DNA of 64,000 bases from Microbispora sp. H13382 (GTDB lineage: Bacteria; Actinomycetota; Actinomycetes; Streptosporangiales; Streptosporangiaceae), in contig NZ_JABBXA010000007.1 of assembly GCF_014161445.1 (NCBI RefSeq), positions 124,001 to 188,000 of the forward strand, read 5' to 3'. Shown piece by piece: positions 1,632 to 12,593 of this stretch (positions are counted from its first letter, which is position 1; each line of letters begins with the position of its first letter). Below the pieces are notes generated by a model. It was not told where the DNA came from. It made no database searches and was given only the letters and a program-made list of their open reading frames with translations. The translations under genes were made by a program, and so were the position numbers.

Positions 1632-2816
1632 GTGCCTGCGTCCCGTGAAGTCGTCTTCGTCGACGGCGTTCGGACGCCTTTCGGCAAGTCGGGCCCGAAG
1701 GGCCTGTACGCCGAGACGCGTGCCGACGACCTGGTAGTCCGCGTCATCCGCGAGCTGATGCGGCGCAACCCCGGCCTCCCCCCGGAGCGGGTGGACGAAG
1801 TGGCCATCGCGGCCACCACCCAGATCGGCGACCAGGGCCTGACGATCGGCCGGTCCGCGGCGGTGCTCGCCGGCCTGCCGAAGTCGGTCCCCGGCTACGC
1901 CATCGACCGCATGTGCGCCGGCGCGATGACCGCCGTGACCACGGTGGCGGGCGGCATCTCCTTCGGCGCGTACGACGTGGCCATCGCCGGCGGCGTGGAG
2001 CACATGGGCCGTCACCCCATGGGCGAGGGCGTCGACCCCAACCCCCGGTTCCTGTCCGAGCAGCTCGTCGACGGCTCGGCGCTGATCATGGGCATGACCG
2101 CGGAGAACCTGCACGACCGCTACCCGTCCATCACCAAGGAGCGGGCCGACGCGTTCGCCGTCGCCTCCCAGGAGAAGGTCGCCAAGGCGTACGCCGACGG
2201 CAGGATCCAGCGCGACCTGGTGCCGGTGGCCGCCCGCAAGGCCGCCGAGGGCTGGGGCCTGGCCACGGCGGACGAGGCGCCGCGCCCCGGCACGACGCTG
2301 GAGGGCCTGCGCTCCCTCAAGACGCCGTTCCGGGCGCACGGGCGGGTGACCGCGGGCAACGCCTCCGGCATCAACGACGGCGCGACCGGCTGCATCGTGG
2401 CCGCCGAGGACGTGGCGCGGGAGCTGGGCCTGACCCCGCGCATGCGGCTGGTGTCCTACGCCTTCGCCGGTGTGGACCCCGAGGTGATGGGCGTCGGGCC
2501 GATCCCCTCCACCGAGCGCGCGCTGCGCCTGGCCGGGCTGTCCATCGGCGACATCGGCCTGTTCGAGATCAACGAGGCGTTCGCCGTACAGGTGCTGGCG
2601 TTCCTCGAGCACTTCGGCATCGCCGACGACGACCCGCGCGTCAACCCGTACGGCGGCGCGATCGCGTTCGGCCACCCGCTCGCCTCGTCGGGCGTGCGGC
2701 TGATGACGCAGCTCTCGCGCGAGTTCGCCGAGCGTCCCGACGTCCGGTACGGGATCACCACGATGTGCGTCGGCATGGGCATGGGCGGCACCGTCATCTG
2801 GGAGAACCTGTCATGA
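1632..2816 (+). CDS. fadA: Acetyl-CoA acyltransferase (thiolase)
   Basis: Thiolase of 394 residues that would catalyse the last step of fatty acid beta-oxidation, releasing acetyl-CoA from 3-ketoacyl-CoA in the cytoplasm. The full active site is visible: nucleophilic Cys95 in DRMCAGAM, His348 in the GHPLASSG motif, and Cys379 in MCVGMGMGGT near the C-terminus. Length is normal for the family. The GTG start at 1632 sits eight bases after an AGGAG ribosome binding site. The stop overlaps the start of the next gene (ATGA), so the two subunits of a trifunctional-like complex are translationally coupled. The two direct repeats upstream suggest repression in the absence of fatty acids. Confidence 0.95.
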   Translation: MPASREVVFVDGVRTPFGKSGPKGLYAETRADDLVVRVIRELMRRNPGLPPERVDEVAIAATTQIGDQGLTIGRSAAVLAGLPKSVPGYAIDRMCAGAMTAVTTVAGGISFGAYDVAIAGGVEHMGRHPMGEGVDPNPRFLSEQLVDGSALIMGMTAENLHDRYPSITKERADAFAVASQEKVAKAYADGRIQRDLVPVAARKAAEGWGLATADEAPRPGTTLEGLRSLKTPFRAHGRVTAGNASGINDGATGCIVAAEDVARELGLTPRMRLVSYAFAGVDPEVMGVGPIPSTERALRLAGLSIGDIGLFEINEAFAVQVLAFLEHFGIADDDPRVNPYGGAIAFGHPLASSGVRLMTQLSREFAERPDVRYGITTMCVGMGMGGTVIWENLS

Positions 2817-4918
2817 GCACCCTCGACACCTGCAAGGCCCTCCTGGAGGGCAAGAACGCCGACGAGGTCGTCACCAAGGCCCTCGTGCGCGACGTCGAGC
2901 TGCCGTACGGCGCGGGCACGATGGCGCTGATCACGCTCGACAACGGCCTCGACCACACCAAGCCCAACACCTTCGGCCCGCACGGCCTGCTCGCGCTCAA
3001 CGAGGCGCTCGACGCCGTCGCCGCGCGGTCCGATCTGGCGGCCGTCGGCGTCGTCGGCAAGCCGTTCATCTTCGCCGTCGGGGCCGACCTCAAGGGCGCG
3101 GCGGCGGTCTCCTCCCGCGAGGAGGCGCTCGCCATCGGGCAGCTCGGGCACCACGTCTTCCGCCGCCTGGGCGAGCTGGACGTGCCGTCGTTCGCGTTCG
3201 TCAACGGCGCGGCGATGGGCGGCGGTCTGGAGATCGCCCTCCACTGCACCTACCGCACCGTGTCGTCGGGCGTCCCGGCCATCGCGACGCCGGAGTGCTT
3301 CCTCGGCCTGGTGCCCGGATGGGGCGGCACCCAGCTCCTCCCCCGCCTGATCGGCCCGGAGAAGGCGCTCAAGGTCATCATCGAGAACCCGCTGTCGCAG
3401 AACCGCATGATCAAGGGCCGCGACGCGTTCGCCCTCGGGATCGCCGACGCGATGTTCGAGCCCGCCGACTTCGTCGAAGAGTCGCTGCGGTGGGCCGCCC
3501 AGGTGCTGCGCGGCGAGGTGACCGTCGAGCGGGCCGACCACACCGCCGAGGACTGGGCGCCGGTGGTCGACCAGGCCCGTACCCTCGTCGACCTCAGGCT
3601 GCGGGGAGCCTCCCCCGCTCCGTACCGGGCGCTCGACCTCGTGGCCCTGGCCCGTACGGCGTCCCGCGACGAGGGCTTCGCCGCCGAGGACGAGGCGCTG
3701 GCCGACCTGCTCATGAGCGACGAGCTGCGGGCCGGGCTGTACGCCTTCGACCTGGTGCAGCGCAGGGCCAAGCGGCCGGCCGGCGCGCCGGACAGATCGC
3801 TCGCCCGCCCGGTCACCAAGGTCGGCGTGGTGGGCGCCGGGCTCATGGCCTCGCAGCTCGCGCTGCTGTTCGCCCGCCGCCTGGAGGTCCCGGTCGTGCT
3901 GACCGACCTCGACCAGGCCCGGCTGGACAAGGGCGTCGGCTACGTCCACGCCGAGGTCGACAAGCTGCTCGGCAAGGGCCGGATCTCCGCCGACCAGGCC
4001 AACCGGCTGAAGGGCCTGGTGAGCGGGTCGCTGACCAAGGACGCCTTCGCCGACGCCGACTTCGTGATCGAGGCCGTGTTCGAGGACCTCGCCGTGAAGC
4101 AGAAGGTGTTCGCCGAGGTCGAGGAGGTCGTCTCCGGCACCTGCGTGCTCGCCACCAACACCTCCTCGCTGTCCATCACGGACATGGCCTCCGGCCTGCG
4201 GCATCCGGAGCGGGTCGTGGGCTTCCACTTCTTCAACCCGGTCGCGGTGCTGCCGCTCCTGGAGATCGTCCGGGGCGCGGCCACCGACGACGCCACGCTG
4301 GCCACGGCGTTCGCGGTCGGCAAGACGCTGAAGAAGTCGTCCGTGCTGGTCAAGGACGCGCCCGCGTTCGTCGTCAACAGGCTGCTGACGCGCTTCATGG
4401 GCGAGGTCACGGCCGCCGCCGACGAGGGCACCCCGCTGGAGGTCGCCGACCACGCGCTCGACTCGCTCGGCCTGCCGATGACGCCGTTCGCGCTGCTGCA
4501 GCTCGTCGGCCCGGCCGTCGCGCTGCACGTGGCCGAGACCATGCACGCGGCGTTCCCGGACCGCTTCGGCGTCTCGGAGAACCTCGCCAAGCTGGTCGCC
4601 GCGGGCAAGCCCGGCATGTACGGCGCGGACTTCCAGATCGACCCGGAGGTGCGGGCGCTGTTCGAGGGCGGCTCGTCCCCCTCGACCGCCGACGAGGTGC
4701 GGCTGCGCGCGCTGCGGGCCCTCGCCCAGGAGATCAGGCTCATGCTCGACGAGGGCGTGGTCTCCGCGCCGCAGGACATCGACCTGTGCATGATCCTCGG
4801 CGCGGGCTGGCCGTTCCAGACCGGCGGCATCACGCCGTACCTCGACCGTACGGGCATCTCGGAGGAGGTCACCGGCTCCCGCTTCCTGGAGCCCGGTGTG
4901 GCCTCCGTACCGGCCTGA
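2813..4918 (+). CDS. fadB: Enoyl-CoA hydratase / 3-hydroxyacyl-CoA dehydrogenase
   Basis: Bifunctional beta-oxidation protein of 701 residues. The N-terminal crotonase domain (about 1-330) has the oxyanion region GAAMGGGLEIAL and the ETPE-like stretch ATPECFLGLVPGWGGTQ, which contains the hydratase glutamates. The C-terminal part (about 330-700) begins with the NAD-binding motif VGVVGAGLMAS, where the third glycine of the usual GxGxMG is Ala, and continues with the dehydrogenase signature GFHFFNPVAVLPLLEIV. ATG at 2813 overlaps the thiolase stop. With fadA it forms the complete hydratase-dehydrogenase-thiolase cycle; an acyl-CoA dehydrogenase is not in the window. A strong hairpin at 5063-5097 lies downstream. 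Confidence 0.95.
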   Translation: MSTLDTCKALLEGKNADEVVTKALVRDVELPYGAGTMALITLDNGLDHTKPNTFGPHGLLALNEALDAVAARSDLAAVGVVGKPFIFAVGADLKGAAAVSSREEALAIGQLGHHVFRRLGELDVPSFAFVNGAAMGGGLEIALHCTYRTVSSGVPAIATPECFLGLVPGWGGTQLLPRLIGPEKALKVIIENPLSQNRMIKGRDAFALGIADAMFEPADFVEESLRWAAQVLRGEVTVERADHTAEDWAPVVDQARTLVDLRLRGASPAPYRALDLVALARTASRDEGFAAEDEALADLLMSDELRAGLYAFDLVQRRAKRPAGAPDRSLARPVTKVGVVGAGLMASQLALLFARRLEVPVVLTDLDQARLDKGVGYVHAEVDKLLGKGRISADQANRLKGLVSGSLTKDAFADADFVIEAVFEDLAVKQKVFAEVEEVVSGTCVLATNTSSLSITDMASGLRHPERVVGFHFFNPVAVLPLLEIVRGAATDDATLATAFAVGKTLKKSSVLVKDAPAFVVNRLLTRFMGEVTAAADEGTPLEVADHALDSLGLPMTPFALLQLVGPAVALHVAETMHAAFPDRFGVSENLAKLVAAGKPGMYGADFQIDPEVRALFEGGSSPSTADEVRLRALRALAQEIRLMLDEGVVSAPQDIDLCMILGAGWPFQTGGITPYLDRTGISEEVTGSRFLEPGVASVPA

Positions 4919-5097: not shown

Positions 5098-5189
5098 CGT
5101 CACCGAGGTGGTGGCGGCATTCCCGCTCTGCCGGGCCGGAAGATGTCGTCCCTTCTCTGTACGCTCTATGAGCAGGAAGGGAGCAGGCC

Positions 5190-5522
5190 ATGACAGCGCA
5201 GCCGCACGACTTCGTACTGGGTGAAACGCCGTTGCCGGAGAAGAACCTGCGTGCCATACGCGCCGCGTTGGTCATCCCCCAGGACCGCGAGGCGTTCGAC
5301 GCTGGACTGAAGGCGGTGCTCGACGAGGTCAGGGTCAGCCTGGACCTGAGTGCACTGAATACGTTCGTGCACCGGTGGTGGATTTCCGCCTGTGACTCGG
5401 TACGCGATCCCGAAGGCCGTCGGCAGATGCACAACCGGGCCGAACAGGTCCTCGCCGGCGGCCCCCGGACCGAGGGAAAACCCTGGCGCGAGATTCTCGC
5501 CGCTCGCGGAATCGACATGTAG
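5190..5522 (+). CDS. DUF6247-like protein, putative antitoxin
   Basis: Small acidic protein of 110 residues. The pattern of an IRAALVIPQDREAFD segment followed by a helical stretch ending in HRWWISACDS resembles the actinobacterial DUF6247 family, which I recall only as of unknown function. ATG at 5190 follows a GGGAGC ribosome binding site. Its TAG stop is immediately followed by the GTG of a RelE/ParE-like gene with no gap, an arrangement typical of type II toxin-antitoxin operons, so it is probably the antitoxin. A start-less copy of its 5' third lies at 7444-7577. Family assignment is moderate; the antitoxin role is inferred from context. Confidence 0.7.
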   Translation: MTAQPHDFVLGETPLPEKNLRAIRAALVIPQDREAFDAGLKAVLDEVRVSLDLSALNTFVHRWWISACDSVRDPEGRRQMHNRAEQVLAGGPRTEGKPWREILAARGIDM

Positions 5523-5768
5523 GTGTACAAGCTCGTCATCGACCCGATAGCCGAAGAGCAAATCGCCGCGCTCCCTGAGGAAGCGCTGCGCCCGCTCGCG
5601 GAACTGTTCACGCTTTTGGAGACCACTCCATGGAGCGGGGAACCCTACAACCGGGCCAAGCCGAGATCGAACATGCTCACCCACACCTTCGGCGAACGGG
5701 GACTCGCCACCTACATCGTCCTCGACGAGCAACGTGAGAGCTACCTTGTTCGCATCGAGTGGCCATAG
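5523..5768 (+). CDS. RelE/ParE-like toxin
   Basis: An 81-residue protein starting at a GTG that touches the stop of the upstream gene. The N-terminal YKLVIDPIAEEQIAALP and the C-terminal strand pattern GLATYIVLDEQRESYLVRIEW are characteristic of the compact RelE/ParE fold: two helices followed by an antiparallel sheet. The basic patch around RAKPRSN could bind RNA or a partner protein. Catalytic residues of RelE RNases are poorly conserved, so an mRNA-cleaving activity cannot be read out; ParE-type gyrase poisoning is the alternative. It probably forms a complex with the DUF6247-like protein. Confidence 0.75.
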   Translation: MYKLVIDPIAEEQIAALPEEALRPLAELFTLLETTPWSGEPYNRAKPRSNMLTHTFGERGLATYIVLDEQRESYLVRIEWP

Positions 5769-5820
5769 CGTTTTCCGCCGCGTCGCCCTGGCTACGGAAA
5801 TCTCAGCGGCCACATGCGGT

Positions 5821-5894
5821 CAGGCCGCGTGCCTATAGGCGGAGTAGGCGAGGTAGCCCGCATCGCCGCCCTGGTACCAAATGGACTCGTCGTC
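5821..5894 (-). pseudogene. 74-bp duplicate of the 3' end of the old yellow enzyme gene
   Basis: This stretch matches 8056-8129 (the last 25 codons of the intact OYE gene) at 66 of 74 positions by my hand alignment, in the same orientation. The homology stops abruptly on both sides. No promoter or start belongs to it, so it is a gene tail left by duplication or recombination. Confidence 0.85.
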
Positions 5895-5913
5895 GCCACA
5901 GCAAGTTCGTCAC

Positions 5914-6345
5914 CATGGCTCAAGACGACGGATGGACCGTCCAAATCGTCGCTACCCCGAACGCGCTCGACTTCATCGACGTCCCCATACTGGAGAAGCA
6001 GACCGGCCGCCCCCGTCCGCAGCCGGTACCGCAAGCCAGACGATCCCAAGCCCCCGAGGCCGACGCCATCATCGTCGCCCCGCGACCTACAACACCATCA
6101 ACAAGTTCGCCCAAGGCATAGCCGACACCTACCCACTCGGTCTCCTCGCCGAAGCCTCCGGCCTCGGCATCCCCGTCGTTGTCCTACCTTCGTGAACAAC
6201 GCCCTTGCCTCGCGTATTACCAATCCGCCATAGCCTGGAGGCGCTACGCGCCGAAGGCGTTCACGTAATTGGTCCCGGCCAACTCGAAGCCCACCCACCT
6301 GGTGCCGGAACCGATCGGATTGGCTCCTATCCATGGCATCAGGGG
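5914..6345 (+). pseudogene. Frameshifted flavoprotein (PPC decarboxylase-like)
   Basis: Pieces of one protein lie in successive frames. DGWTVQIVATPNALDFIDVP is followed in another frame by RSRYRKPDDPK, then ATYNTINKFAQGIADTYPLG with LLAEASGLGIPVVVLP, then FVNNALASR, then HSLEALRAEGVHVIGPGQ. Read together they match the flavoprotein fold of PPC-decarboxylase/DfpA-like proteins common in actinomycetes: the AP-T-NTINK loop binds FMN and phosphate, and G-PVV-P-- follows. At least three frameshifts are needed and no start is visible, since the 5' end joins the OYE tail fragment. It is a decayed gene, perhaps once partnered with a helix-turn-helix regulator as in Streptomyces. Confidence 0.8.
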
Positions 6346-6650
6346 TTATCGGTGATGCGCAAACCAGCGGAGCGCCGCCAATCCGACCAGGAGATGGGCT
6401 CAGCATGCTGACGCGCAAACACTGGCGGCCATGCTAATCAAGAAGGTTGACTCCACGTCGCGCCGAACAATCCACGAACTCCGGCAGGAGCGTGAACGCG
6501 ACCCCGGAGCAGGTGGCCGAAGCGGTAACCCGCATCAACTCACACGCCGAGACCTTCCCCTCGTGACCTTGCACGAGGCGGGATATCTCGTTGGGCCCGC
6601 AACAGCGCCCATCATCGCTGACGCCCTGAATCAAAACGGCCGATAATACC
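6346..6650 (+). other. Unassigned decayed sequence
   Basis: No intact gene. Two overlapping frames give short protein-like pieces (NATPEQVAEAVTRINSHAETFP in one, then VTLHEAGYLVGPATAPIIAD in the next), which suggests another frameshifted gene, but I do not recognise it. Codon third positions are visibly less GC-rich than in the flanking genes, consistent with acquired or decaying DNA. Confidence 0.35.
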
Positions 6651-6750
6651 TTCCCTCGCAGCCACGACCGTCCCGGTTCCATCGGCGTAATGGAAATGAC
6701 GCAATCGCCACCGCGATGACATCACGGTTCCAGCGGGCAGCAAAAGTGAC

Positions 6751-6780
6751 CGGGTGCAGGGCGCCGATGCCCTGCACCCG
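6751..6780 (-). terminator. 12-bp perfect hairpin
   Basis: Perfect 12-bp arms (6751-6762 and 6769-6780) with a 6-base loop. It lies 14 bases past the stop of the leftward small gene at 6794-7033. Read on the minus strand it is followed by GTCACTTTTGC, so it is a plausible intrinsic terminator for that gene. Confidence 0.75.
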
Positions 6781-6793
6781 ATTGTTGCCTGGA

Positions 6794-7033
6794 TCAGCGA
6801 CCGCGCGTCCTGCGCCGTCCGGGTACACGAACGCTCGCGGCCTTCCGGCCATCGCCTCTGCCCGCACTGAGGGTGACGGTTCCACCCCGGTAGGCGAAGA
6901 CGACGAGCAGGACGGCCAGAGATACGGCACACGCCACGGCTATGCCGATGCTCACCCAGGGGTGATCGGGCCAGGCCATCACAGCCGTGATCGGTGCGGC
7001 GATCGGCAGGAGCACAGTCTTGCCCAGCTTCAT
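6794..7033 (-). CDS. Small membrane protein, unknown
   Basis: A 79-residue protein starting MKLGKTVLLPIAAP. Two hydrophobic stretches (about residues 5-20 and 27-48, the second reading IGIAVACAVSLAVLLVVFAY) predict two membrane passes or a signal plus anchor, followed by a strongly basic tail ending RRRTRGR. ATG at 7033 has an AAAGGG ribosome binding site eight bases upstream, and a good hairpin terminator follows, which supports a real, expressed gene. I do not recognise a family; small basic-tailed membrane proteins of this type occur on actinomycete integrative elements, but nothing here proves that origin. Confidence 0.5.
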   Translation of the reverse strand: MKLGKTVLLPIAAPITAVMAWPDHPWVSIGIAVACAVSLAVLLVVFAYRGGTVTLSAGRGDGRKAASVRVPGRRRTRGR

Positions 7034-7160
7034 GGAGCACACCCTTTCGGTCGGAAACGGCCGAAGGGATCACCCCAAAACCCGGCCCACCCGGCTGCAA
7101 GCGGGTAAAGTGGTCAGCGTAAACGCCCAGTTTACGGCTGAGGGAATCGCCCTTCGGCAG

Positions 7161-7197
7161 GAGTACGCCGGGTCGATGCCCTCGATCCGGCGTACTC
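7161..7197. repeat. 16-bp inverted repeat (one mismatch)
   Basis: Arms at 7161-7176 and 7182-7197 (core AGTACGCCGG / CCGGCGTACT) with loop TGCCC. It lies 128 bases upstream of the small membrane gene start. It could be a terminator of lost upstream genes or an operator. The remainder of 7034-7440 holds no recognisable gene and is relatively AT-rich. Confidence 0.6.
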
Positions 7198-7380
7198 AAG
7201 AAGTTAAGCGACAAGAGCCGCACTTGACGCCCATACCGCGCATTTCGTTGACTCAGCCGCGAGCAAATGATCCTAAGCGGCTAGTTTGAATCGGGAGTTG
7301 ACTAGTCTCTTCGTCACAGCCGCATCAGGCCCCTATTAGGGGATGCCACTTTCCAGGCTTAGGCCATGGCTGATTATCTC

Positions 7381-7410
7381 TCGTGCGGCCGTCCCACAAC
7401 GGCCGCACGA
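7381..7410. terminator. 12-bp perfect hairpin before the DUF6247 fragment
   Basis: Arms 7381-7392 and 7399-7410 pair perfectly around loop CCCACA. It occupies the same relative place as the 16-bp hairpin (5063-5097) upstream of the intact DUF6247 gene, although the sequence differs. No U-tract. Confidence 0.6.
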
Positions 7411-7443
7411 CGCCGTACCGGGACCGCACAAGCGTCATCCAGA

Positions 7444-7577
7444 CAGGAAGGGAAGCAGGGTCCGCACGAAATCTCGTACCGGGCAACACGCCGTTGCCGG
7501 AGAAGAATCTGGCGGCCATACGCGCCGCGTTGGTCATCCTGCAGGACCGCGAGGCGTTCGACGCCGTGCTGAAGGCG
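7444..7577 (+). pseudogene. Start-less duplicate of the DUF6247 gene 5' end
   Basis: Positions 7473-7577 match 5211-5315 of the intact DUF6247 gene at about 91 of 105 positions by hand alignment. The match continues upstream through the ribosome binding site region (CAGGAAGGG-AGCAGG). About a dozen bases that would contain the ATG and first codons are deleted. The homology ends at AAGGCG, next to the stop of the FtsX-like fragment. It encodes no complete protein. Confidence 0.85.
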
Positions 7578-7588
7578 CCCCGGCGCGG

Positions 7589-8054
7589 TCAGCATTCGGC
7601 CAGCAGACAACGCTCGACCGGCCGGGCCTGCCAGAGGCCTTTCATCCCGCGGAAGCGGTCGATCACGGTGGCGACATCGTCGGGGTCCTTGAGCTTCAGG
7701 TGGTAGTAGGACACCTCTGCCGTGAAATCGCTGTCGGTGCGGCACCGCAGGTCCTTGATGGCGTGTTTCGGGTCCTCGAAGTAGAACGTCTCGACCTCCG
7801 ACGTGCCGCGGATGGCCTCGACGTTCGCGTCCTGCTGCGCGGTAGTAAGGGCCGCAGGGCACCCGGTTCCCTCGCCAGGCTTGGGCAGGCACAGGCGCAA
7901 CGTCACATGGGCCTCGCCGTACCAGAATCCGTCGCCCTGGGGAAAGACACCGTCCACACCAGGGAGCGCACGGATGGTGCGGGAGAGTTCACGGGATTTC
8001 GCTCGGTCGAGCAGGACGCCGACGATGGAGTCGGTCCTGCACGCTGCGGGGGGT
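7589..8054 (-). pseudogene. FtsX extracellular domain-like fragment
   Basis: An open frame enters from the OYE stop side without its own start and ends at 7589. It reads LSRTIRALPGVDGVFPQ, then HVTLRLCLP, CPAALTTAQQ, EVETFYFEDPKHA and YYHLKLKDPDDVATVIDRFRGM. This is the pattern of the FtsX extracellular domain found in actinobacterial FtsX-like permeases and small lipoproteins, apparently the end of one domain followed by a second. The 5' part is missing: the frame is fused at base 8054 to the end of the OYE gene. A GTG at 7957 could in principle start a 122-residue product, but no clear ribosome binding site is seen. Confidence 0.55.
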
Positions 8055-9128
8055 TCAGGCCGCGTGCCGGTAGGCGGGGTAGGTGAGGTAGCCCACGTCG
8101 CCGCCCTGGTACCAGGTGGACTCGTCGTCCGGCGCGATGGGGAGTCCCTGGCGCAGCCGCTCCACGAGGTCGGGGTTGGCGATGAAGGCGCGGCCGAAGC
8201 TGATCAGGTCGGCGCCGAGCCCCAGCCAGTGATCGGCCGCGGCCTTGTCCGCCCGCCGGGGGCCCATCGGGAAGACCGGGTTGACGACGAGCGTGCCGGG
8301 CCAGGCCTTGCGCAGCTCGACGAGCACGTCCTCGTCGGTGGTGGCCTCGATGTGGACGTACGCCAGGTCCAGGGGTGCCAGTTCGGCGAGCAGCGCACCG
8401 TACAGCTCGGGGACGTCGCTGTCCTCCGCGCCCCAGAAGCCCGCGCCGGGGGAGAGCCGGATGCCCGTCCGGTCGCCGCCCACCGCCTCGGCGGTAGCCG
8501 ACACCGCTTCCACGGCGAAACGAATCCGGTTGGCGATCGGCCCGCCGTACGCGTCGGTGCGCAGGTTGGCGGTGCCCGACAGGAACTGGGCGATGAGATA
8601 CCCGTTCGCGCCGTGCAGTTCCACGCCGTCGAAGCCGGCGTCGACGGCCCTGAGCGCGGCCTGCGCGTAGGACAGGGCCTGCTCGGGCACCTCGGCGGTC
8701 TCCAGCGCCCTCGGCACGGGCGCCGGCTTGGGTCCTGACGGGGTGAACACCTCGCCGGGAGCGGGGACGGCAGAAGGGCCCACTGGCCGCATCCCCGTGG
8801 TGTCGGGGTGGGAGACGCGGCCCCCGTGCATGATCTGGGCGAAGACGCGGCCACCGTTGGTGTGGACCGCGTCGGTGACCGGCCGCCACGACGCGACCTG
8901 CTCGTCGGTGTACAGCCCCGGAGTGCCCGGGTTGGACTGCCCCACGAGGCTCGGCTGCACTCCTTCCGTCACGATGAGCCCGGCGGTGGCGCGCTGGGCG
9001 TAGTAGGCCGCCATCGACGGTGTGGCCAGGCCGCCCGCGGCGGCGCGGACGCGGGTCATCGGGGCCATCACCACACGGTTGGGCAGGGTCAGCGCGCCGA
9101 GCCGGTAGCGGTCGAAGAGGGTCGTCAT
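8055..9128 (-). CDS. Old yellow enzyme family NADH:flavin oxidoreductase
   Basis: An FMN-dependent ene-reductase of 357 residues with a TIM-barrel fold. The N-terminus MTTLFDRYRLGALTLPNRVVMAPMTR is the canonical start. QIMHGGR and the substrate/FMN motif GVELHGANGYLIAQFLS, containing the His and Asn that hold the substrate carbonyl plus a Tyr, are intact. The C-terminus has the phosphate-binding ISFGRAFIANPDLVERL. ATG at 9128 is close behind AGGA. It is divergent from a MerR regulator with a shared dyad operator, so it is probably induced by electrophiles or redox-cycling compounds. Its final 74 bases are duplicated at 5821-5894. Confidence 0.95.
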   Translation of the reverse strand: MTTLFDRYRLGALTLPNRVVMAPMTRVRAAAGGLATPSMAAYYAQRATAGLIVTEGVQPSLVGQSNPGTPGLYTDEQVASWRPVTDAVHTNGGRVFAQIMHGGRVSHPDTTGMRPVGPSAVPAPGEVFTPSGPKPAPVPRALETAEVPEQALSYAQAALRAVDAGFDGVELHGANGYLIAQFLSGTANLRTDAYGGPIANRIRFAVEAVSATAEAVGGDRTGIRLSPGAGFWGAEDSDVPELYGALLAELAPLDLAYVHIEATTDEDVLVELRKAWPGTLVVNPVFPMGPRRADKAAADHWLGLGADLISFGRAFIANPDLVERLRQGLPIAPDDESTWYQGGDVGYLTYPAYRHAA

Positions 9129-9252: not shown

Positions 9253-9621
9253 ATGCGGATCGGCGAGTTGGCGTCGCAGGCGGGAGTGAGCGTCCGTTCC
9301 CTGCGCTACTACGAGGAGCAAGGCCTGCTCACCAGCACGCGCAGCCCCAGCGGCCAGCGCCACTACACCGAGGACGAGGTCGAGCGGGTGCGGTTCATCC
9401 AGCGCCTGTACGGCGCGGGGCTGTCGAGCCGGACGATCGCCGAGGTGCTGCCGTGTGTCGACTCGCCGAGCGAGCGGAACTCCGACGAGGCGTTCGAGCG
9501 GCTGGTCCAGGAGCGCGACCGGATGAGCCGGCACATCGACGAGCTCGCCCAGGCCCGCGACGCCCTCGACCTGCTCATCGACGCCAACCGCGCGCACCGC
9601 GCGCACCTGATGCCTCGCTGA
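9253..9621 (+). CDS. MerR family transcriptional regulator
   Basis: A 122-residue MerR protein. The winged helix-turn-helix MRIGELASQAGVSVRSLRYYEEQGLL is followed by RYTEDEVERVRFIQRL-type wing residues and a coiled-coil dimerisation helix (about 78-112). One cysteine lies at the hinge (VLPCVDSPS), a position often seen in MerR proteins that pair with OYE-like reductases, where it may sense electrophiles. ATG at 9253 follows an AGGAGG-like site. It is expected to bend and activate the divergent OYE promoter. A bidirectional hairpin follows at 9679-9708. Confidence 0.92.
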   Translation: MRIGELASQAGVSVRSLRYYEEQGLLTSTRSPSGQRHYTEDEVERVRFIQRLYGAGLSSRTIAEVLPCVDSPSERNSDEAFERLVQERDRMSRHIDELAQARDALDLLIDANRAHRAHLMPR

Positions 9622-9722: not shown

Positions 9723-11894
9723 TCAGCGCTTGAACAGGCGCGGTGCCAGGTCGATGAGGTTCTTCTGCCACACGTCCCAGCCGTGCGGCCCCGGGGTGAC
9801 CCCGTCGAACTCGTAGCGGATGCCGAGATCGTTGAGCGTGGTCAGGGACCCCATGAAGAACGGCTGCACGAAGTCGGTCTGGTCGCCGACGTACAGGCGC
9901 AGCATCTTCGTCCCGTTGTTGATCGCCGCCACGTCCACGCCGGCGCCGTCGCCGAACCAGGCCGAGAACGCCGCGACGTAGGCGAACCGGCCCGGGTACG
10001 CCTTGAGCACCCCGAGCGTCTGCACCCCGCCCATCGAGAGACCGGCCAGGGCCTGGCGCGACGGGTCGCCGGAGATGTTGTAGCGGGCGCGGGCCGCCGG
10101 GACGATGTTCTCCAGCAGCTCCTTGTTGAAGTCGGGCACGTTGCCGTTGCCCATCACGACCACCATCGGCACCAGCTTCCCGTCGAGGAACTGGTGGTCG
10201 AGGATCTGCTTGGCACGGCCCATCTCGACCCAGTCCGTGTAGCTCTGACCGCTGCCGTGCTGCAGGTAGAGGACGGGATACGGCTCCGCGCGCCTGGCGT
10301 CGTAGCCGGGCGGGGTCCACACCAGCGCGGTCCGGTCCTGGTTCGCCACCGTGCTCGCGTACGTCAGGCTCTCGACCTTCCCGCCCCGGCCGGCCGGAAC
10401 ATCCGAGAGCAGGCGTGACCTCTCGCCCGGGATGAAGAAGGAGCTCCAGTTCGGCTCGGAGGTCACCTTCGTCGGGTTCGACGCGTCCTTGACCGCGACC
10501 CGGTCCACGATCCACTGGTAGTAGTAGAACCACGGATCCAGCGGACCGATGGTCACCCGCCACCGGTCGCCGTCGCGGGACATCGGAACGCGCAGCCAGC
10601 TCCCGCCGGGAGCGTCGTTCGCCCACACCGTGACGTGCTTGGCGTCCTTGAAGTCCGTCGAGGTCTCGAAGGTGACGAAGCCGTCCTGCACGAACGGCGT
10701 CGGGGTGGTGCCGGGCGCCGGCGGGGTGAACTCGCCCTTCAGCGGCCCGTGACCGGCGCTCGGACCGTGATCCCGCACCGTGCGGAACAGCCGGGGCACG
10801 AAGTCGATCAGATTCTCCTGCCAGGCCTTCCAGTTCGCCCCGGCGTCGGGGTTGACCCCGTCGAACTCGTACCTGATGCCCGCGCGGCTCAACGCCCTCG
10901 TGAGGTGGACGGTGGCGTTGTACGCGGGATCGGTCACGTTCCCGGTGTACAGGCGCAGCAGCTTGAGGTCGCGGTTGATCGCCTTGGCGTCCGGCCGGTC
11001 GGCGCCGTCCGTCAGCAGACCCGAGAACGAGCCGGCGTAGGCGAAGTCGTTCGGCTTGGTCAGCGCGGCACGCAGCGCCTGCGTCCCGCCCTCGGACACA
11101 CCGGCGATCGCCTGGTGCGCCGGGTCGCGGAGGACGCGGTAGGCGTCCCCGACCGCCTTGCGGAGGTCCTTCAGATCCTTGTCGCCGGCCGCCCCGTCGC
11201 CGATTACGACCACCATCGGCTCCATGGAGCCCTGGGCCGACAGGTTGTCGAGGATCTGCCTGGCACGACCGAGGTCGAGCCAGTCGGTGGCGCTCTGCCC
11301 GTCGCCCGCCTGCAGGAACAGCACCGGGTAACCCTTCGGCCCCTTGGCCTGGTAGCCGGGCGGCGTCCACACCAGCGCCGAGCGCTCCTTCTTCTTGACC
11401 TGGTAGGTCAGGGTCTCGACCTTGCCGCCCTGTCCCTGCGGCGCGTCCGCCAGCAGGCGCGCCGAGTCACCCGGAACGAGGAAGGTGCTCCACAGGGGCT
11501 TGGACGCCACACTGGTGGCGTTCGTCGGATCCTTGAGGCTCTTGGTGTCGTCGCCCGTGACCTGGTAGGAGTACAGCCCCGGCTTGAGCGGGCCGAGGGC
11601 CCCCCACCAGACGTCGCCCCGGCGGGTCAGGCCGTACTCCGCCCAGGCGGAGGAGGGGCCGAAGTTCCCCTCGACCGCCAGCTGCGACACCGGGCCCGCG
11701 TTGGCCTCGATGTAGGCCGCCGGGATGCTGATCGCCACGTAGCCGTCGTCCGAAACACTCAGCCACGGTGTGTCCGCCACCGCTGGTCGCGGCGCGACCA
11801 GAATCGCCGCGACCGCCATGACTCCGGCGGTGATCACCGCCGAGAGCCGGCGCACGCCCTTGCGGCGCAGGCCGCCGTGCTGGAATAACGTCAT
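9723..11894 (-). CDS. Secreted tandem CBM48-esterase D protein
   Basis: A 723-residue exported protein. Start ATG 11894 has GGGAG nine bases upstream, and the signal peptide ends near AVADTPWL. Two homologous modules follow (about 42-375 and 385-723), each an N-terminal E-set/CBM48-like sandwich (SVSDDGYVAISIPAAY; VQDGFVTFETSTDF) plus a Fes/feruloyl-esterase-like alpha/beta hydrolase. Module 2 is complete: LQHGSGQS oxyanion region, GLSMGG nucleophile Ser620 and PHGW with His704. Module 1 keeps GVSEGG (Ser267), but its oxyanion histidine is Ala (LQAGDGQS) and the catalytic His position is Ala353. Module 1 is therefore probably not a hydrolase and may bind substrate or stabilise the pair. Substrate is unknown (acetyl- or feruloyl-sugars, siderophore esters or glycans). 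Confidence 0.9.
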   Translation of the reverse strand: MTLFQHGGLRRKGVRRLSAVITAGVMAVAAILVAPRPAVADTPWLSVSDDGYVAISIPAAYIEANAGPVSQLAVEGNFGPSSAWAEYGLTRRGDVWWGALGPLKPGLYSYQVTGDDTKSLKDPTNATSVASKPLWSTFLVPGDSARLLADAPQGQGGKVETLTYQVKKKERSALVWTPPGYQAKGPKGYPVLFLQAGDGQSATDWLDLGRARQILDNLSAQGSMEPMVVVIGDGAAGDKDLKDLRKAVGDAYRVLRDPAHQAIAGVSEGGTQALRAALTKPNDFAYAGSFSGLLTDGADRPDAKAINRDLKLLRLYTGNVTDPAYNATVHLTRALSRAGIRYEFDGVNPDAGANWKAWQENLIDFVPRLFRTVRDHGPSAGHGPLKGEFTPPAPGTTPTPFVQDGFVTFETSTDFKDAKHVTVWANDAPGGSWLRVPMSRDGDRWRVTIGPLDPWFYYYQWIVDRVAVKDASNPTKVTSEPNWSSFFIPGERSRLLSDVPAGRGGKVESLTYASTVANQDRTALVWTPPGYDARRAEPYPVLYLQHGSGQSYTDWVEMGRAKQILDHQFLDGKLVPMVVVMGNGNVPDFNKELLENIVPAARARYNISGDPSRQALAGLSMGGVQTLGVLKAYPGRFAYVAAFSAWFGDGAGVDVAAINNGTKMLRLYVGDQTDFVQPFFMGSLTTLNDLGIRYEFDGVTPGPHGWDVWQKNLIDLAPRLFKR

Positions 11895-12593
11895 ACCGAA
11901 ACTCCCATGATGGCCGCAGCGGTCGGTCTGACCCACCGACCTTACTCGTCGGTAGAATGCGCAACCGATTCTGTGACCGTCCATCCGTCGGCACAGGCGC
12001 ATTCGCTCTCTATTAGTCGCGAGCAATATCGGTCGCGATTCCAACGAGTCAAGTTAATTGATAAGGTCCCGATACACAAGCCTGCTTCGCCCCGACCGGC
12101 CAGGACACGGCCGTTGCGCCGGCACCGCCTCGGAGCATGCCGCATCCACGGGAGCCCGGCGGACACGGCACCGATTGGACGCAGGGGTGACCTCCCACAT
12201 GTCCGCCGCCCGGGCAGCGGACGGCGCCGGGCGGCCGCTGCACGGGAAGTGAAACGGACGGCAGCGGAGCGCTGTCCCCGCCGGAGACGCGACCGGTGCC
12301 GACCGCGGCGAACGGTTGCCGCTGCTTGACCGGCGTCTCTGACACCGCCGGAACGGCAGCTCATTCAGAAGACGCCGTTTCCCGGAGACGGCGATCCGGT
12401 CGCCCCTCGTCGCACGGCCTCCACCCCGGCAGCGTGCGGTCACCTGAACGCGAATTCGTTCTCTTCGCGGCGGCTCGCGCTGTTCGCACCGCCGGGTTAA
12501 CCATCCCCCAATAGCGCGCAAGTCGCATACTCTTCCGCGATCGGGTAAGCGGCCCTTCGTGTCAAAGTTCGCGACGACGAGAAGAGGCCGGAC
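11895..12593. other. Long intergenic region, no gene recognised
   Basis: About 700 bases between the esterase start and the SnoaL-like gene. Open frames exist on both strands, but none gives a family-like protein or a credible ribosome binding site. The part nearest the esterase (about 11930-12065) is relatively AT-rich and should carry its promoter. Otherwise nothing identifiable. Confidence 0.5.

Follow-up and report, generated by a model that had tools for sequence, protein, structure and literature searches.

It is a known kind of event that genes are duplicated in tandem and that the copies then lose complementary parts, and variable insertion slots are known as regions of genomic plasticity between conserved genes. 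Here we describe a locus in a 64,000-nucleotide stretch of Microbispora sp. H13382 (the window), which probably goes back to a tandem duplication that has since decayed: a DUF6247-partner-(FtsX-like)-old yellow enzyme (OYE) cluster would have been doubled in a variable slot, bordered by fadB and by an esterase-like gene, and each unit would have lost other parts by deletion. The two copies are denoted W1 and W2, and they belong to unit A (5190-5894) and unit B (7462-9128), respectively. The features of the slot are the following, the names fadB, thiolase and esterase being read from the translations alone, without family search:

2816..4918 (start approximate), plus strand: fadB-type fatty-acid oxidation gene, an open frame; left border of the variable slot
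5190..5522, plus strand: DUF6247 gene of unit A, open; PF19760 at E 1.5e-21, third-codon-position excess against three other genera
5523..5768, plus strand: 81-aa partner gene, open, abutting DUF6247 (the RelE-like toxin of the original prediction); partner found by tblastn in 31/46 DUF6247 loci
5820..5894, minus strand: drifting second copy of the OYE gene end (last 24 codons plus stop); repeat match
5901..6340, plus strand: broken relic of a dispersed flavoprotein gene; DNA matches in other Microbispora, Pfam Flavoprotein below cut-off
6745..7356, minus strand: relic block, containing a small hydrophobic ORF at 6794-7042; 87% to G014:C201:181-792
7462..7577, plus strand: DUF6247 5' relic of unit B without start codon; repeat match and relatives
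7578..8039, minus strand: gene resembling the FtsX extracellular domain, truncated at its 5' end by about 60 N-terminal residues; PF18075 exactly at cut-off
8055..9128, minus strand: OYE gene of unit B, open; PF00724 at E 1.2e-71
9253..9621, plus strand: MerR-family regulator gene adjoining OYE; PF13411 at E 1.6e-20

Of these parts, only the open DUF6247-partner pair, the OYE gene and the MerR gene would be expected to be active, and the mosaic as such is credited with no new function.

The repeat search of the window yielded two pairs of direct repeats, the order of which is conserved between the copies: the DUF6247 start (5212-5315 and 7474-7577, 104 nt, 88% identity) and the OYE end (5820-5894 and 8055-8129, 75 nt, 89%). 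Their local-alignment scores (147 and 110) lie far above the maxima of 200 single-base shuffles each (30 and 28), which speaks against chance matches, and both pairs were recovered by the search of the own genome (E = 1.2e-30, 83% over 131 bp and E = 5.0e-21, 89% over 75 bp, respectively). Between the repeats the two fillings (5316-5819 and 7578-8054) have no similarity above shuffles on either strand (scores 22 and 23 against shuffle maxima of 31 and 28). Inspection by eye indicated that the second copy of DUF6247 has retained the upstream CAGGAAGGG stretch and is shorter there by about 11 bases, the start codon being among the lost ones. The original prediction, made from the letters by hand alignment, had described two fragments recurring in the same order and orientation with 87-89% identity, a missing ATG in the second copy and different fillings, and in all these respects it agrees with the present measurements. 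The genome is a draft of 70 contigs, which would leave room for an artefact of assembly; nevertheless the copies are 11-12% apart over their cores, both are located within one contig of 372,289 bases, thus a simple assembly duplication is unlikely, and since a comparable two-unit remnant occurs in M. catharanthi, we regard this explanation as hardly credible.

The genus set comprised 15 genomes, that of the window included; among them are M. bryophytorum (G002), M. catharanthi (G003), M. hainanensis (G005), M. siamensis (G009), M. sp. H11081 (G011) and M. triticiradicis (G014), the rest being referred to by number. The fadB stretch 3000-4918 was matched in all 15 of them, and the slot from fadB to the esterase-like gene extends from about 0.1 kb in G004, where the two genes are approximately 97 bp apart, to 10.7 kb in G013, where it is filled with other DNA including pieces that resemble the slots of G008 and G009, and neither DUF6247 nor the FtsX-like gene nor OYE is among the matches listed. 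In G012 the esterase match stands 113 bp past fadB and the contig ends 102 bases further; the slot of G014 is split over contigs, the best esterase match of G001 and G007 is on a different contig from fadB, and G001 and G014 carry an OYE gene elsewhere in the genome. Nine genomes, which have fadB and parts of the cluster on one contig (the window, G002, G003, G005, G006, G008, G009, G010 and G011), were compared block by block, with 60 shuffles per slot comparison. DUF6247 sequence, whole or as a remnant, was detected in eight of the nine slots (it is absent from G008, and G006 has only 29 bp), the OYE gene end likewise in eight (absent from G003; only about 310 bp of OYE is left in G005), and the FtsX-like gene in five (the window, G002, G003, G009 and, as a 53-bp remnant, G006). 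Two side observations concern the borders of the slot. In G009 (L035, ~1248-2622) about 1.37 kb of extra DNA is inserted at about the thiolase stop, before fadB (window ~2816). The esterase-like gene (9723-12044) contains an internal tandem repeat (10190-10344 and 11240-11394, 75%, spacing 1050); within this gene the alignments of G002, G010 and G014 are interrupted, and further copies occur elsewhere in several genomes.

The arrangement of the parts differs from species to species. The order DUF6247-toxin-OYE, which the original prediction had supposed to be ancestral, is present in G005 as DUF6247-partner-OYE, with broken genes: DUF6247 contains a stop, and the full-length partner is frameshifted. 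In G010 and G011 DUF6247 is followed by a partner cut short and then by OYE sequence. In G002 and G009 the initial part of the partner stands between DUF6247 and the FtsX-like gene, and OYE comes after these, the DUF6247 of G009 being without its first 41 codons. On contig C202 of G014 a partner copy with a stop adjoins DUF6247 sequence starting at codon 41. The slot of G003 contains the 3' end of a partner, then the middle of DUF6247 for a second time (aligned to G002 over 68 columns at 75%, E 5e-7), a partner start and the FtsX-like gene; thus the two-unit order is found in two of the nine slots, the window and G003. As a separate observation, noticed post hoc, the breakpoints in W2, G009, G014 C202 and G003 looked clustered within about 12 bp (5310-5321, DUF6247 codons 41-44).

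It should be emphasized that the FtsX-like filling is a native neighbour. Its place in the cluster is the same in G002, G009 and G003, where it is an ORF of 208, 210 and 206 aa, respectively, on the opposite strand, and the window's gene is 83-88% identical to these copies. The original prediction had proposed that the middle of one copy was replaced by an unrelated FtsX-like fragment, a reading which the near-equal length of two mutually dissimilar fillings would favour; the synteny, including the remnant in G006, largely refutes such a replacement, which is highly improbable, and what stands of the original prediction is an old rearrangement and the order DUF6247-partner-OYE in a relative. 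Since the FtsX-like gene is found at its regular place in the relatives, a duplication followed by different deletions suffices, and the parts which the two copies do not share do belong to one cluster in these relatives. In G002, G009 and G003 the gene follows a partner remnant ending at the equivalent of ~5594-5597, therefore copy 2 was probably derived from this DUF6247-partner remnant-FtsX arrangement by the loss of the DUF6247 end and the partner start. In no relative was the FtsX-like gene found directly behind a partner that is whole.

According to the preferred reading a small DUF6247-partner-(FtsX-like)-OYE cluster would have been duplicated in tandem long ago, as a single first event. 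Unit A has kept DUF6247, the partner and the OYE gene end, in the same order as in G005; in unit B the OYE gene is left whole, together with the DUF6247 start and most of the FtsX-like gene. The other parts of each unit would have been lost by deletion, possibly through illegitimate joining. The FtsX-like gene is cut at 8039, and its other end joins the DUF6247 piece at 7574-7578, where both have GGCG in common, a short sequence which might mark one such joint; no clear short homology was seen at the joints near 5894 and 8039. The two-unit remnant of G003 suggests that the duplication is old or recurrent. No OYE trace is present in the approximately 65 bp that separate the G003 units, thus the duplication in G003 may be a separate one.

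Foreign relics lie between the two units of the window, at 5901-6340 and 6745-7356. The first has DNA matches of 79-90% in six other Microbispora genomes and of 71% over 124 bp in a seventh, and its flavoprotein counterpart is a 182-aa open frame in G011. A query covering 5890-7470 matched 130 of 200 family genomes, and among the matches listed it was mostly the flavoprotein-like part (5901-6340) that was hit. The piece 6341-6744 had no match in the 10 other slot stretches compared (two from G014). The block 6745-7356 has its counterpart (87% identity) at the start of contig C201 of G014 (181-792), and the hydrophobic ORF in it (6794-7042) has similar 79-aa ORFs in G014 and G090. On C201 this block is followed by short remnants of DUF6247 (45 bp, 78%) and OYE (52 bp, 83%), just as it precedes unit B in the window, which leads to a serious rival of the tandem duplication: two slot alleles of different Microbispora lineages (fadB-DUF6247-partner-OYE and block 6745-7356-DUF6247-FtsX-OYE) could have been fused, through homologous recombination within fadB at one end and an illegitimate joint at the other, without prior tandem duplication. 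Single-unit slots of either kind do exist in other species. The sharing of the block with G014 and its absence from G006, which is the window's sister in the fadB tree (100/98; 14 rows, G013 not included), fit such a fusion as well. It also counts against duplication that no second unit is present in the slot of G006, where two other long ORFs (242 and 403 aa) were observed between the partner remnant and OYE (L038, 3787-5812 in the fadB-to-OYE orientation).

The relatedness of the two copies bears on both readings. The DUF6247 piece of W2 shows nearly the same identity to G011 (87%) and G002 (86%) as it does to W1 (88%), which counts against duplication; against fusion, W1 and W2 have two DUF6247 states in common that occur in none of the four other Microbispora rows of the alignment. 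Similarly, the W1 OYE end is nearer to W2, G002 and G008 (89% each) than to the genomes with DUF6247-partner-OYE (G005 and G010, 83%; G011, 87%). This OYE end differs from G002 and G006 in three of 24 residues and has accumulated silent and non-silent changes, as in a relic. The repeat trees were built on 104 + 75 bp (six rows in the DUF6247 part, 11 rows in the OYE part): W1 and W2 came together with weak support (43/80), and neither the grouping of unit A with G005 and G010 (p-AU 0.316) nor that of unit B with G002 (p-AU 0.070), as fusion would have it, was rejected. In the tree with other genera the placement of W1 and W2 was unresolved, W2 being on a long branch, and trees of the short repeats carry too little signal to date the duplication. 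In the fadB tree G003 groups with G002 (90/89). Considering the two-unit order in G003 together with these weak, non-rejecting trees, an old tandem duplication is favoured, and the fusion of two alleles is kept as a serious competitor, although a less likely one.

The nearest relatives of the DUF6247 gene were Microbispora records in the search for related DUF6247 genes. The 81-aa partner was present, in some cases partial or broken, at 31 of 46 DUF6247 loci (six of the 46 from Microbispora) and absent from 15, hence the two small adjacent genes are kept together across many genomes. The differences to Microtetraspora at codon positions 1, 2 and 3 number 13, 8 and 45 in DUF6247 and 12, 5 and 34 in the partner, and this excess at the third position shows that the pair, judged by its codons, has been under constraint between genera. 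Within the genus the partner is cut, frameshifted or absent in all eight other slots compared; the window's partner was the only full-length, stop-free match above 57% identity in the partner-protein search of the genus, and paralogs at 39-57% occur in several genomes, the window's included. The original prediction had named it a RelE-like toxin, for which the family searches gave no confirmation: no toxin family of Pfam, NCBIfam or PADLOC was matched, the search against PDB sequences returned noise (best E 0.33), and 19 members of the partner family had no toxin-family match, one of them giving a chance match to a viral coat family (E 0.24). The one comparison with a ParE-type toxin profile resulted in an hhalign probability of 8% (E 0.0041) over 32 columns of the partner's first half, thus "RelE-like" describes a resemblance only, and membership in RelE/ParE, for which three paralogs were also considered, is without sequence support. 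ParE_toxin had no match in the own genome and was present in 37 of 61 family genomes and in 7-8 of 14 controls. Carriage of DUF6247 by phages or plasmids was considered and discarded, as no relative was found in viral contigs, plasmids or phages (the viral-contig search gave a pattern match in 10 stretches, none of them confirmed); a full-text literature search for DUF6247 returned no paper. We tentatively suggest that DUF6247 and its partner might form a module of two genes, perhaps a toxin-antitoxin family that falls outside the sequence families known so far. It occurs in numerous genera of actinobacteria (Microbispora, Nonomuraea, Streptosporangium, Actinomadura and others), and the Microbispora slot would be the place where it is being lost from one species after another. 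The second gene of this module is without family name and may merit a direct test.

The striking "mosaic duplication" turns ordinary once it is set against eight relatives, and it provides a small example of gene slot turnover between species. Compared to type II toxin-antitoxin pairs (RelE/ParE), the likeness is that of two small adjacent genes standing together in many genera, whereas the 81-aa protein has no sequence-level match to any toxin family. With the known cases of tandem duplication and complementary deletion the locus shares the ordered direct repeats, the different retained parts and the drifting relics, the only difference being its genus-specific genes. As in other variable insertion slots, the flanks are conserved and the contents vary from about 0.1 to 10.7 kb across species, but the turnover here appears to proceed by deletion and illegitimate joining.
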